Source of the DNA: an uncultured Clostridium sp.
GTDB lineage: Bacteria > Bacillota > Clostridia > TANB77 > CAG-508
Assembly (NCBI GenBank): GCA_905203195.1
Contig: CAJKVD010000011.1
Location: 1 to 10,576, forward strand
Direction: 5' to 3'
DNA length: 10,576 nucleotides
Every line of letters begins with the position of its first letter. Position 1 is the first letter of the stretch. Shown here piece by piece: positions 2,557 through 10,576 of this stretch. Below the pieces are notes generated by a model. That model did not search any database. It worked only from the letters and a program-made list of their open reading frames with translations, and was not told where the DNA came from. The translations under genes and the position numbers were made by a program.

Positions 2557-3198
2557 CTATAATATTTCATCTAATACTTTTGCCAAATATTTCATGCTTG
2601 TTAGGCATTGTTCTAAAGTATTTCCAGTTGCTCCAACTTCCATTATACTTGCATATTTTCCTGCATGCTGGTTATATCTATATTCTGTTAACATTAATGG
2701 TTTAAATAGTCCTGGATACATTTCCTCTGCTTTTTCTTGTACTTTTATTGCGAATTTTAGGTTTTGTTGCCAGTTTGGGTGTTCTAGTCCTCCTTGATTT
2801 GTTCCTATTACATACATTATTTGTGCTGCATAGTCATCTCCTATTTTTACTGTTGGTGCATAGTCTGCTCGTGCTCCTATTGCATCTCTATGTAAGTCTA
2901 TAATTATATCTGATGGTGTATTTTTTAAAATATTTTGTACAGTTGTTAATGATCGTGTATATGATCCATTATATGATGGATAATCGTGATAACTTGTATT
3001 ATGTACTACTGGTATGTTGTATTTTTTTAATTCTGTTTCTAATTCTGTTCCTACTCTTGTTACTGTGTAATTTAAGTCTGTTGTTCTATATGTTCCTGTT
3101 GTATTGTATTGAAATTTTTCACTTGGAGTATAGCTTTCACAACTGTGGGTGTGAAAGATTACTACATTTTTATTGTCTATTGTTATATTTGGTTCCAT
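2557..3198 (-). CDS. spoIIP: SpoIIP catalytic-domain fragment, 213 aa from first ATG
   Basis: This holds the SpoIIP-family hydrolase domain. Counting from the ATG at 3198, it shows HTHSCES (16-22), DLHRD (101-105), an IGTNQGG loop (131-137) and IMEVGATGNTLEQ (185-197), the conserved His, Asp and Glu motifs of this metal-dependent cell-wall hydrolase family. The frame has no stop as far up as 3459, and the extra 87 codons are a Glu/Asn/Lys/Thr-rich linker, as expected between anchor and enzyme. The ATG at 3198 sits right at the domain edge and has no good ribosome binding site, so it is probably not a real start. Made alone, the product would lack an export signal and stay in the cytoplasm, away from its substrate. 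Confidence 0.75.
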   Translation of the reverse strand: MEPNITIDNKNVVIFHTHSCESYTPSEKFQYNTTGTYRTTDLNYTVTRVGTELETELKKYNIPVVHNTSYHDYPSYNGSYTRSLTTVQNILKNTPSDIIIDLHRDAIGARADYAPTVKIGDDYAAQIMYVIGTNQGGLEHPNWQQNLKFAIKVQEKAEEMYPGLFKPLMLTEYRYNQHAGKYASIMEVGATGNTLEQCLTSMKYLAKVLDEIL

Positions 3199-3427: not shown

Positions 3428-3709
3428 TTATTTATTGCTGATATTTCTGTCCCGAATGGCTATTTTTAGATAATTTTTGTTTTTATTTTCTTCTTTATTT
3501 TCTTCTTTTTCTTTAATAGAATTTATTGCTGGAATTTGACTATTTATTGATTGTAAACACAGTTTTGATTGTGGAATTAATAATTTTATTTTATTTTCTT
3601 TTTTTAAGTCAAAAAATCTTGCAAATAACACAATCATTATTACTAATAAAAGTGTACCTACAAGATATTTGGTTATGTCTTTTAATTTAAAAATTGCAAC
3701 ATTAAACAT
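3428..3709 (-). CDS. spoIIP: SpoIIP N-terminal fragment: membrane anchor, 93 aa
   Basis: This fragment begins MFNVAIFKLKDITKY. It has one strongly hydrophobic helix at residues 12-33, then a basic stretch and a Glu/Asn/Lys-rich tail ending at a premature TAA. In SpoIIP the helix anchors the protein and the catalytic domain lies outside the membrane. An in-frame ATG also exists at 3751, but the ATG at 3709 has AAAGGAGA at the correct distance and gives the typical short cytoplasmic tail, so 3709 is preferred. The last 13 or so codons are probably read out of frame, because the other frame reads PFGTEISAINNQEK over the same bases and leads into the catalytic part. Alone, this piece has no enzyme domain. 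Confidence 0.75.
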   Translation of the reverse strand: MFNVAIFKLKDITKYLVGTLLLVIMIVLFARFFDLKKENKIKLLIPQSKLCLQSINSQIPAINSIKEKEENKEENKNKNYLKIAIRDRNISNK

Positions 3710-3716
3710 ATATATT

Positions 3717-3724
3717 TCTCCTTT
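3717..3724 (-). promoter_or_regulatory. Ribosome binding site that sets the spoIIP start
   Basis: AAAGGAGA lies 7 bases ahead of the ATG at 3709-3707. The ATG 42 bases further upstream has no comparable site, so this one decides the start. Confidence 0.7.
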
Positions 3725-3770
3725 GCATTCTATATATAATTTATGTTGCAACCTTTTGATTTATTCTTTT

Positions 3771-5194: not shown

Positions 5195-6319
<1,125 letters not shown>

Positions 6320-7511: not shown

Positions 7512-9611
7512 TTATAATTCTTTCATTGTTAGGTTTATTCTGTCTTGGTCATCTATTTCTATGACTTTTACTGTGACTTTTTGTCCAACATGTAGTACAT
7601 CTTCTACATTTTTTATTCTTTCATTTGATATTTTTGATATGTGTAATAATCCTTCTTTTCCACCACATCCTAAGTCTACAAATGCTCCAAATGGCATTAT
7701 TCTTGTTACTTGGCCATAATAGATTCCACCAACTTCTACATCTCTTACTATGTCTTCTATCATATCTAATGCATCTACTGCTTTTTCTGGGTCAGATGAA
7801 TATATAAATACTCTTCCGTCTTCTTCTATGTCTATTTTTACTCCTGTTTCTTCTATTATTTTGTTTATTACCTTTCCTCCAGGTCCTATTACATCTTTGA
7901 TTTTTTCAACTTTTATTTGTGTTGATACTATACGTGGTGCATATTTTGATATTTCTTTACGTGGTTCACTTATTACTGGTTTCATTATTTCGTCTAAGAT
8001 GTATTGTCTTGCTATTTTTGTTCTTTCAAATGCTTCTGCTATTATGTCATATGTTAATCCATCTATTTTGATGTCTACTTGGATTGCTGTTATTCCTTTT
8101 TCTGTTCCTCCTACTTTGAAATCCATGTCTCCAAAGAAGTCTTCTAGTCCTTGTATGTCTGTTAACATTACATAATCGTTTTCGTCTTCTGGATTGGTTA
8201 CTAATCCTGTTGAGATTCCTGCTACTGGTCTTTTTATTGGTACTCCTGCTGCCATTAATGATAATGTGCTTCCACATATACTTGCTTGTGATGTTGATCC
8301 ATTTGATGATAGTACTTCTGATACAACTCTTATTGCATATGGAAATTCTTCTTTTGATGGTAGTACTGGTACTAATGCTTTTTCTGCTAATGCTCCATGT
8401 CCTATCTCTCTTCTTCCTGGTCCTCTTGATGGTCTTGCTTCTCCTACGCTATATGCTGGGAAGTTGTATTGGTGCATATATCTTTTTGTTTCTTCGTTGT
8501 CTAATCCGTCTAATGTTTGTTCTTCACTTATCATTCCTAATGTTGTTACTGATAATACTTGAGTTTGTCCTCTTGTGAATAATGCACTTCCATGTACTCG
8601 TGGTAATAAATCTATTTCACATGATAGTGGTCTTATTTCATCTATTTTTCTTCCGTCTACTCTTTTATGCTCATAGAATATCATGTCTCTTACACATTTT
8701 TTCTCTAATTTATATATTGCTTCTCCTATTTGTTGTTTGTTTTCTTCAAATGCTTCTTCTCCATATTTTTCTGCATATGCATTTGATATTTTTTCTGTTA
8801 ATTCTGCTATGTTGTTGTCTCTTGTTTCTTTGTCTTTTTCTTGTACCTTTTCTTTCATTTCTTCTGTGAAGTTTTCTGCTATGTATTCATATAAGTCATG
8901 GTCTACTGCAAATGATTTGTATTCGAATTTTGGCTTTCCTATTTCTTCTTTCATTTTTTCTATGAATTTGCAGATTTTTTTGATTTCTTCATGTCCTTTT
9001 TTGATTGCTTCTAGCATTACTTCATTTGATACTTCGTTTGCTCCTGCTTCTATCATTGCTATTTTTTGTTCTGTTCCTGCTACTGTTAGTGTTAAATCTG
9101 ATACTTTTCTTTGTTCTTCTGTTGGGTTTATTACTATTTCTCCATTTACTAGTCCTACATTTACTGCTGCTGTTGGTCCTCCGAATGGTATGTCTGATAT
9201 TGATAGTGCTGCTGATGCTCCTATCATTGCTGCTACTTCTGGTGAGTTGTCTTGTTCTACTGATAATACTGTTGCTACTACTACTACATCATTTCTGAAG
9301 TCTTTTGGGAATAGTGGTCTTAGTGGTCTGTCTATTGCTCTTGATGTTAGTATTGCTTTGTCTGCTGGTTTTCCTTCTCTTTTTTGGAATGATCCTGGTA
9401 TTTTTCCTACTGCATATAGTTTTTCTTCGTAGTCTACTGATAGTGGGAAGAAGTCTATTCCTTCTCTTGGTTCTTTTGATGCTGTTACATTTACCATTAC
9501 TACTGTTTCTCCATAACGTACTACTACACTTCCGTTTGATAGTTCTGCCATTTTTCCTGTTTCTATTACTAACTTTCTTCCTGCTAGTTCTGTTTCATAA
9601 CTTTTAAACAT
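7512..9611 (-). CDS. pnp: Polynucleotide phosphorylase, 699 aa
   Basis: PNPase degrades RNA from the 3' end by phosphorolysis as a ring-shaped trimer, and can also add tails. All domains are in order: first RNase PH fold (about 1-140), helical domain (about 150-310), second RNase PH fold (about 315-545) with GPGRREIGHG (397-406) and the catalytic GDMDFK (494-499), a KH domain with the GPGG loop (576-579), and a C-terminal S1 domain (about 625-697, GQVTRIMPFGAFVDLG). The length is normal and no key motif is missing. The ATG at 9611 has GAGGAGG 8 bases upstream. It follows rpsO across a hairpin terminator, the widely conserved rpsO-pnp order, so its expression probably depends on read-through. 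I saw no convincing separate promoter in the 133-base gap. Confidence 0.99.
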   Translation of the reverse strand: MFKSYETELAGRKLVIETGKMAELSNGSVVVRYGETVVMVNVTASKEPREGIDFFPLSVDYEEKLYAVGKIPGSFQKREGKPADKAILTSRAIDRPLRPLFPKDFRNDVVVVATVLSVEQDNSPEVAAMIGASAALSISDIPFGGPTAAVNVGLVNGEIVINPTEEQRKVSDLTLTVAGTEQKIAMIEAGANEVSNEVMLEAIKKGHEEIKKICKFIEKMKEEIGKPKFEYKSFAVDHDLYEYIAENFTEEMKEKVQEKDKETRDNNIAELTEKISNAYAEKYGEEAFEENKQQIGEAIYKLEKKCVRDMIFYEHKRVDGRKIDEIRPLSCEIDLLPRVHGSALFTRGQTQVLSVTTLGMISEEQTLDGLDNEETKRYMHQYNFPAYSVGEARPSRGPGRREIGHGALAEKALVPVLPSKEEFPYAIRVVSEVLSSNGSTSQASICGSTLSLMAAGVPIKRPVAGISTGLVTNPEDENDYVMLTDIQGLEDFFGDMDFKVGGTEKGITAIQVDIKIDGLTYDIIAEAFERTKIARQYILDEIMKPVISEPRKEISKYAPRIVSTQIKVEKIKDVIGPGGKVINKIIEETGVKIDIEEDGRVFIYSSDPEKAVDALDMIEDIVRDVEVGGIYYGQVTRIMPFGAFVDLGCGGKEGLLHISKISNERIKNVEDVLHVGQKVTVKVIEIDDQDRINLTMKEL

Positions 9612-9744: not shown

Positions 9745-10008
9745 TTATTTTCTTAATCCTAATTTTTCTACGATGTCTCTGTATCTTTGTACATCTTTTT
9801 TTGCTAGGTAGTTTAATAAGTTTCTTCTTTTTCCTACCATTTTTAATAGACCACGTCTTGAATGGTTGTCTTTTACATGTACTTTTAAGTGTTCTGTTAA
9901 TTCGTTGATTCTTTCTGTTAAAAGAGCGATTTGTACTTCTGGTGATCCAGTGTCTTTTTCTTCTCTTTTATATGTGTTGATTATTTCTTGTTTTCTTTCC
10001 TTTGTCAT
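9745..10008 (-). CDS. rpsO: Ribosomal protein S15, 87 aa
   Basis: S15 binds the central domain of 16S rRNA early in assembly of the 30S subunit and contacts the 50S subunit. The core motif [17 protein letters not shown] and the highly conserved [22 protein letters not shown] are intact, and the protein ends KLGLRK. The frame can be extended to a GTG at 10017. I prefer the ATG at 10008 because AGAGAGGTG (10023-10015) then lies at proper ribosome-binding distance and includes that GTG. The 87-residue length is also closer to the usual 88-89. It has its own promoter and leader and heads the rpsO-pnp unit. Confidence 0.98.
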
Positions 10009-10014
10009 TTTTTG

Positions 10015-10023
10015 CACCTCTCT
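10015..10023 (-). promoter_or_regulatory. Ribosome binding site that decides the rpsO start
   Basis: AGAGAGGTG matches the 16S tail and lies 6 bases before the ATG at 10008. It contains the in-frame GTG that would otherwise be read as the start. Confidence 0.65.
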
Positions 10024-10104: not shown

Positions 10105-10133
10105 ATTATATTATATTTTTTGGAAAAAATCAA
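10105..10133 (-). promoter_or_regulatory. Sigma-A-type promoter of rpsO
   Basis: TTGATT (10133-10128) and a perfect TATAAT (10110-10105) are 17 bases apart, 97 bases before the rpsO start. It lies in the gap after the lectin-like gene, so rpsO need not depend on transcription of that gene. Confidence 0.7.
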
Positions 10134-10167: not shown

Positions 10168-10576
10168 CTACTCCTCTACTTGAACTGGGATTCCAGATCT
10201 TAGAGAAACTAGGGGACCAACACTGTGCGTAGTGCTACAGTAGTCGTAGTAGTTCAAGTAAGCGCTGGTACCGCTCACATAGCACACGCGGTAATAGTCG
10301 CTAGACGAAGGAGAAGCCAGCCACCAATAGCCTGTTTTACTACCGTTTTTTCCTGCATACATGCTGTTATATCCTTTATAATCTAATGAATCTGTTCCTG
10401 TGTAATAATCACTATTTGATTTAGTTGATTGAGCTCCATTTAATGTGTATATGTATCCATGGTCACCACCATCATTTTTATATTCTGCTCCTAAAGTATA
10501 ATTTCCTACTTCTGTATGTGGTACATCATTATATGATGCTATATACATCTCTACACTTGGTCCTCCTATTGCATAT
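10168..10576 (-). CDS. C-terminal part of a C-type-lectin-fold protein, putative DGR target
   Basis: The frame is open to the right edge, so only the last 136 residues are visible. It reads YAIGGPSVEMYIASYN near the edge, then a Gly/Asn/Tyr-rich region, then GYWWLASPSS and GPLVSLRSGIPVQVEE at the end. This layout (IGGPSxEM, WWLASP, PLVSL) is that of the FGE-like C-type lectin domains of DUF6273/DUF1566 type, used as the scaffold of many DGR-diversified proteins. Bases 10321-10576 have about 33% GC, while the last 150 bases have 50% and quite different codons. The N-terminal part and cellular location are not visible; related gut clostridial proteins are often surface proteins. rpsO follows in the same direction, and no clear terminator separates them. 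The fold is fairly sure. DGR targeting is strongly suggested but unproven without a template repeat. Confidence 0.8.
   Translation of the reverse strand, partial: YAIGGPSVEMYIASYNDVPHTEVGNYTLGAEYKNDGGDHGYIYTLNGAQSTKSNSDYYTGTDSLDYKGYNSMYAGKNGSKTGYWWLASPSSSDYYRVCYVSGTSAYLNYYDYCSTTHSVGPLVSLRSGIPVQVEE
10171..10320 (-). repeat. Putative DGR variable region
   Basis: This 150-base stretch has 75 G+C bases, far above its flanks. Between 10302 and 10222 there are 27 codons. Five look fixed (GTG, GTG, GGT, GCT, TTG). The other 22 encode only Ser, Asp, Tyr, Arg, Cys, Thr, Asn and His, and 21 of them end in C or T, with one ACG at 10230-10228. That is what adenine-directed mutagenesis of AAC/AAT codons in a template repeat produces, because only the first two bases vary. 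The flanks LASPS and VGPLVSL are conserved-type sequence. Neither template repeat nor reverse transcriptase lies in this window, so this would be a remote target, or the element lies beyond the right edge. Confidence 0.72.

Follow-up and report, generated by a model that had tools for sequence, protein, structure and literature searches.

Diversity-generating retroelements (DGRs) with multiple targets are known (PMC6642488), and a global survey found DGRs to be more common in Firmicutes and in the human gut, with 24 clusters of targets (PMC8144416). Among the membrane-anchored cellular targets of that survey, an N-terminal transmembrane or signal segment is combined with a C-terminal C-Lec variable region (VR) (PMC8144416). 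DGR targets of Faecalibacterium prophages that contain DUF6273 carry the VR at the C-terminus of this domain, and some of these DGRs have two VRs (PMC11792537). Tentaclins and their companion target2 proteins contain a DUF6273-like domain reported to be C-type-lectin-like, with the VR forming a surface beta-hairpin (PMC10743442). The DGRs of Treponema denticola have targets that lie far from the core of reverse transcriptase (RT) and template repeat (TR), and one of their VRs is closer to the TR of another isolate type (PMC4891356). The target site of BPP-1-type elements includes a GC-rich hairpin of 7 to 10 bp with a GRNA loop, situated 4 to 34 bp downstream of the VR (PMC3240598).

Here we describe, from an uncultured species of gut Clostridia, a candidate DGR target gene at the edge of the window, by which we mean the whole stretch of DNA analysed (10,576 nucleotides). 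The order on the minus strand is the cut target gene, then rpsO, then pnp (Table 1). Placement of the predicted VR at the C-terminus of DUF6273 is the same as in the Faecalibacterium prophage targets, but those are phage genes, whereas the window target adjoins bacterial housekeeping genes; furthermore, its full-length relatives, unlike the prophage targets as described, combine a prepilin-like N-terminus with Big_2 domains (PMC11792537). Tentaclins differ in domain order, with an N-terminal lectin domain followed by Ig domains, whereas here Big_2 precedes a C-terminal VR domain (PMC10743442). As in T. denticola, the target is distant from any RT/TR core, a likeness in gene placement between different organisms (PMC4891356). 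The predicted layout and the host group are like those of the membrane-anchored survey targets, to which we liken the window target by description and not by cluster membership (PMC8144416).

Table 1. Features of the target locus, in positions of the window.
Feature	Position	Strand	Remarks
Candidate DGR target gene, 3' part	10168..10575	-	Open ORF, 135 codons + stop; 5' end beyond window edge
Predicted variable region (VR)	10209..10323	-	TR-homologous stretch; 115 nt vs 112 nt in G195 TR, one codon more in window
Predicted 5' anchor of VR, TGGCTGGCTTCTCCTTCGTCT	10303..10323	-	One mismatch to G195 TR across 21 bases
Predicted 3' anchor and IMH-like boundary, CCCCTAGTTTCTCTAAGATCTGG	10193..10215	-	TR/VR agreement to CCCCTAG
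Promoter-like site between target and rpsO	10105..10133	-	TTGATT, 17 nt, TATAAT; consensus scan
rpsO (ribosomal protein S15)	9745-10017	-	PF00312, E 3e-38
pnp (polynucleotide phosphorylase)	7512-9611	-	PF01138 and further domains

The stop codon of the target gene occupies 10168-10170. Profile PF19789 (DUF6273) matched the cut target protein with an E value of 6.3e-4 and 20.1 bits, below the cut-off of 23.5; in three relatives of the target the same profile gave scores of 24.9 and 26.2 bits, which pass, and 15.8 bits, which fails. The assignment of the target to DUF6273 is a weak match. Searches of the target against PHROGs returned a weak Hoc-like match alone (E 0.015), those against NCBIfam returned zero matches, and viral contigs had no match to the target protein or to two TR/VR patterns. 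Our structure searches gave no confirmation of a C-type lectin fold, and no sequence relative with a solved structure turned up at E 1. Within the 10.6-kb window, Rfam at gathering scores gave zero matches, and no TR, RT or Avd gene was seen. The first-pass annotation had named the neighbours as rpsO and pnp, and profile matches (PF00312 and PF01138) bear this out. Since the promoter consensus scan found 2 sites, and shuffled sequences had 4.0 on average, the promoter-like site between target and rpsO is no evidence of function; rpsO may have its own promoter, separate from the target. Elsewhere on the minus strand of the window, at 2557-3198 and 3428-3751, are a SpoIIP-domain ORF that matches profile positions 75-268 alone and, upstream of it, an ORF with no Pfam match; the two might be pieces of one broken gene.

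Composition and codon usage set the end of the target gene apart. Between the WW motif (10326) and the end of the stop codon, GC content is 0.503, compared to 0.325 in the 83 codons before the motif, so the abrupt rise to 50% that had been noticed at WWLASP is real. When the five codons called fixed are set aside, codons 92-118 leave 22 codons, and a recount of these gave the same result as before: 21 of 22 are NNY, with ACG at codon 116 as the exception, and the amino acids encoded are S, D, Y, R, C, T, N and H alone, with no K, E, Q, M or W. The five codons (V97, V100, G102, A105 and L107) face GTG, GTG, GGT, GCG and TTG in the TR of a relative, G195 (described below), none of which contains adenine. 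Their reading as fixed thus stands, but Cys98, which had been counted as variable, is actually fixed: it is TGC in the window and in the G195 TR, and Cys in 103 of the 105 relatives with a residue there. All window codons aligned to AAY codons of that TR are NNY (16/16), compared to NNY frequencies of 0.47 in the 83 codons before the VR (binomial 5.6e-6 for 16/16) and 0.22 in pnp. The third base is C in 14 of these 16 codons, versus 7 to 11% of codons in five other window genes. Thirteen codons separate Pro-Leu (codons 121-122) from the stop, placing the VR at the 3' end of the target. The stretch first proposed, 10171-10320, corresponds to a real region, of which the TR-homologous part is slightly shifted (Table 1). 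Oddities of the window VR are an extra codon relative to the G195 TR, and Tyr94 and Ser118, at which positions most relatives have Ser and Gly.

The genus of the relatives was picked through the WG-repeat protein of the window, which is 66 to 70% identical to its counterparts in three rabbit-gut Clostridia MAG loci. One of these loci, L001, whose genes were listed, contains the end of pnp, a gene that we take to be queA, tgt and the WG gene in window order, with two other ORFs between. All 210 genomes of the genus of that rabbit-gut genome were searched. A DNA search with the window VR gave matches in 20 of the 210 genomes at E 0.01, the best of which was G195, with matches in four places on four contigs (4 of the 19 candidates scored). 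Contig C24 of G195 carries, in one direction and within 2.9 kb, a target gene (3' part) that ends in a VR, then a gene resembling Avd, a repeat with many AAC and AAT codons, and an RT gene. The Avd protein matched phrog_3206 (5.7e-19) and scored 41.6 bits with NF033474 (under the cut-off of 80) and 35.5 bits with bAvd (cut-off 40), while the RT matched phrog_1423 (5.4e-76), with a PF00078 match on C24. Over 112 bases, the G195 TR and its local VR mismatch at 13 of 36 adenines and at 0 of 76 other bases (p 6.8e-8). The three remote G195 VRs mismatch at 13, 21 and 18 of the 36 adenines and at 6, 9 or 10 of the 76 others (6, 10 and 9, respectively). These non-adenine mismatches point either to mutation of the remote VRs from another TR allele or to later drift.

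Compared with this TR of another genome, the window VR is mismatched at 18 of the 36 adenines and at 14 of the 76 other bases (Fisher p 7.5e-4), so that its mismatches are biased toward adenines and not confined to them. VRs of two other genomes showed an adenine bias relative to the G195 TR (G194, p 0.0011; G046, p 8.3e-6), and those of G074 (p 0.13) and G085 (p 0.15) showed no significant bias, which suggests that not all VRs in the genus are read by the G195 type of TR. Immediately past CCCCTAG, the G195 TR has GAT, the window has GTT, and the G195 VRs have GTT or GTC. The VR and TR ends of BPP-1 differ in this region as IMH and IMH*, and the change from GAT to GTT at the CCCCTAG boundary resembles that difference. 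A BPP-1-like hairpin was absent from 87 folded window bases, where just a CTGG/CCAG stem with an AATC loop was found near the VR (folding z -0.57).

Variation in the population was assessed on 108 database proteins that match the window protein and were aligned to it, that is, on proteins rather than reads. Mean column entropy was 3.12 bits in the 16 columns that correspond to AAY codons of the TR and 0.75 bits in six interspersed fixed columns. The anchors were likewise conserved, with means of 0.39 in the 5' anchor (residues 84-91) and 0.82 in the 3' anchor; column 120, whose TR codon lacks adenine, was also variable (2.04 bits). Residues that NNY codons cannot encode (K, E, Q, M and W) accounted for 35 of 1,614 AAY cells (2.2%), compared to 1,059 of 7,650 cells upstream (13.8%). 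A search with the small ORF that spans the G195 TR recovered seven TR-type database peptides, which are asparagine-rich and have mostly the same fixed residues; PLDSL is present in 4 of the 7, where VRs mostly have PLVSL.

At the level of sequence comparison, these results demonstrate the TR architecture and its adenine specificity in the relative G195, together with a concentration of variation at the predicted codons. The first-pass annotation had read the gene as diversified by a DGR, and this reading is now supported by the cassette of a relative, whose TR has the predicted architecture, and by relatives in which most variation falls on the predicted codons and little on those in between. 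We conclude that the VR in the window was very likely made by a DGR. Surface lectin-like domains can, in general, vary fast, and an ordinary adhesin tip evolving under diversifying selection, with no retroelement involved, might be expected to do so as well. However, variable and fixed codons alternate here as the TR dictates, third bases remain C or T, and VR identity is nearly all-or-none across 11,628 pairs of proteins (see below), and we consider such an adhesin tip highly improbable.

Full-length relatives were taken from the best 120 of 686 matches. P0119 (534 aa), the nearest among the matches listed, is 98.8% identical to the window over the 84 aa up to the VR, while its VR matches the window VR at 20 of 35 aligned residues. 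It has a hydrophobic N-terminus, which we presume to resemble a prepilin leader, followed by a Big_2 match and a window-like C-terminus; the Pfam N_methyl profile reached 14.0 bits in one relative, against a cut-off of 21.2. The three closest full-length relatives among the matches listed are P0118, P0119 and P0125, whose entries leave their source unstated, as do those of window-encoded proteins, although the window contains the 3' part alone. Near-identical pairs were defined by at least 97% identity before the VR, the motif being present in 116 of 119 full-length proteins. There were 105 such pairs among the matches listed, of which 76 had identical VRs, 13 differed at 13 to 16 of 51 residues, 5 differed at 1 to 9 residues, and 11 differed in length. 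Since near-identical backbones carry differing VRs, both in P0119 and in 13 of the 105 pairs, VR replacement in this group has been recent.

The same differences bear on whether the window VR is a fossil, once diversified by a DGR that later disappeared or ceased to act on the gene, and now inherited in fixed form. That the nearest relative differs in its VR despite a near-identical backbone, as do the 13 pairs, weighs against this idea. The 76 VR-identical pairs are in its favour, and so are stable alleles (one 455-aa cluster represents 56 contigs, and its VR string is common to 15 proteins) and the 6 to 10 of 76 non-adenine mismatches in the remote G195 VRs, compared to none in the local one. 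On the DGR origin of the VR itself, genome content speaks both for and against. Avd-like genes are present in 121 of the 210 genus genomes and in 0 of 14 control genomes, and a window-like target was found in 46 of 194 genomes at E 0.001. On the other side, the TR core pattern, TGYAAYGTNAAYGGNAAYAAYGC, occurs in just 1 of the 210 genomes of the genus and 1 of 390 sampled from the family, and among the seven genomes that matched the target best, 4 (G137, G194, G046 and G139) gave no match to RVT_1. Furthermore, the three genomes nearest by WG protein (G001-G003) gave neither a target match nor an Avd match, as would be expected if the system had been lost. Overall, we consider a fossil VR rather unlikely, and a DGR cassette is probably still present in the genome from which the window derives.

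The position of the target next to housekeeping genes did not recur in the rpsO loci read: a tblastn search of up to 1.5 kb on each side of rpsO found a window-type target in 0 of 30 rpsO loci (of 194 genomes with an rpsO match). Judged from these neighbourhoods, the adjacency of the target to rpsO-pnp is probably incidental. At one of the 30 loci (L118), the gene beside rpsO matches just the N-terminal leader of a G195 target.

Several other loci contained DGR-like features. A second TR-like repeat was found in G328 (L132, G328:C11, ~6145-6275, minus strand), with 1 mismatch to the pattern and 81% likeness to the G195 TR over 91 bases. Its neighbours are a pilin-like gene and another ORF, presumably mobilisation-like, and no RT was recognised by eye among the listed ORFs; this repeat is possibly a TR remnant or a separated TR. 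G074 has another DGR cassette (L042, G074:C22, 9739-12143), with an Avd-like gene, an RT and a target-like ORF that contains GFYWTKSDDGDNDARVV and is of a different kind from the WWLASP target on contig C45 of the same genome. A DNA search found no second copy of the C45 VR in G074. VR-like stretches of ~0.5 GC, in genes ending in GFRPLVCL or PLVSL, were seen in L010, L011, L017, L021, L046, L047, L052 and others, and these genes apparently represent further VR families of the genus.

VRs were also compared across backbones in a set of 228 proteins (the window protein, the 108 and the 119), of which 35 had no parsable VR, leaving 193. Among the matches listed, these 193 proteins, window included, have 126 different VRs, and 23 of the VR strings are shared by at least two proteins. 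Pairs were counted for 153 of the 193 proteins. Across the resulting 11,628 pairs, VRs were identical in 218, 0.80 to below 1 identical in 20, and below 0.80 in 11,390; such a nearly all-or-none distribution suggests that VRs are replaced whole. The 80 residues preceding the VR were less than 95% identical in 64 of the 218 identical-VR pairs, which represent 13 VR alleles among the matches listed. Differences resume five residues or fewer from the WLASP motif in 20 of these 64 pairs, and in others the shared tract extends 20 to 56 residues. Mismatch in the 10 residues just before the VR was 0.10 in the 64 same-VR pairs, compared to 0.25 to 0.29 in matched other pairs. Because the stretch before the VR is thus also more alike in same-VR pairs, exchanged tracts may often exceed the VR. 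On the other side of the VR, five alleles were found with differing tails (among the matches listed). Independent mutagenesis would hardly yield identical VRs, which suggests either that VRs have moved between target genes or that assemblers have collapsed VR bubbles.

The window VR is itself one of the shared alleles. Its 31 residues are identical in P0133, whose 80 residues before the VR are ~70% identical to those of the window, with differences resuming on both sides. The relatives were gathered by likeness to the window, which favours P0133 through its VR; the remaining shared alleles differ from that of the window. Such a shared VR on a diverged backbone would be expected if the window VR had been gained by recombination with a paralogous, already diversified target, and not directly by retrohoming from a TR. 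However, P0133, compared here as a protein, lies on a contig of 2,096 bp and could be an assembly artefact. The flank common to both before the VR is ~12 residues, or some 36 bases (a length inferred from the protein), which argues against an artefact, as it is short for an assembler path switch. No VR sharing at the DNA level was found among the 30 distinct VR-like stretches in the fetched loci, and the claim of VR sharing is therefore one about proteins. We regard recombination as a rather unlikely origin of the window VR. More broadly, we tentatively suggest, with limited confidence, that finished VRs of these gut Clostridia act as cassettes passed whole between paralogous targets, the breaks falling at the edges of the VR or close to them, and that binding sites are in this way re-mounted on other surface proteins, the window VR being one case. 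Intragenic recombination that fuses domains to C-Lec regions has been suggested (PMC8144416). We recognised no report of VR exchange between paralogous targets among the papers listed by term searches of open-licence literature.

We propose that a DGR elsewhere in the genome would transcribe a TR, and that an RT acting with Avd would misread adenines while copying the TR transcript. The cDNA would then replace the VR between the ~21-nt 5' anchor and the CCCCTAG boundary. Scattered target genes would be hit, the window gene among them. The target protein would sit at the cell surface, with prepilin-like features and Ig domains, and its C-terminal domain, probably C-type-lectin-like, would present the varied residues for putative binding.

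This locus illustrates that a VR is recognisable from raw sequence with neither TR nor RT at hand. A DGR target can sit in a housekeeping neighbourhood far from any cassette, and cassette-centred surveys could miss such targets. The abundance of Avd-like genes in the genus (121/210) suggests an investment of these small-genome gut Clostridia in hypervariable surface binding. Should VR sharing prove real, it would constitute a second, shuffling layer atop DGR mutagenesis, in which the retroelement makes the repertoire and recombination shuffles it. If VRs do travel as cassettes, a binding site, once generated through mutagenic retrohoming, could be kept and re-used on other surface proteins.
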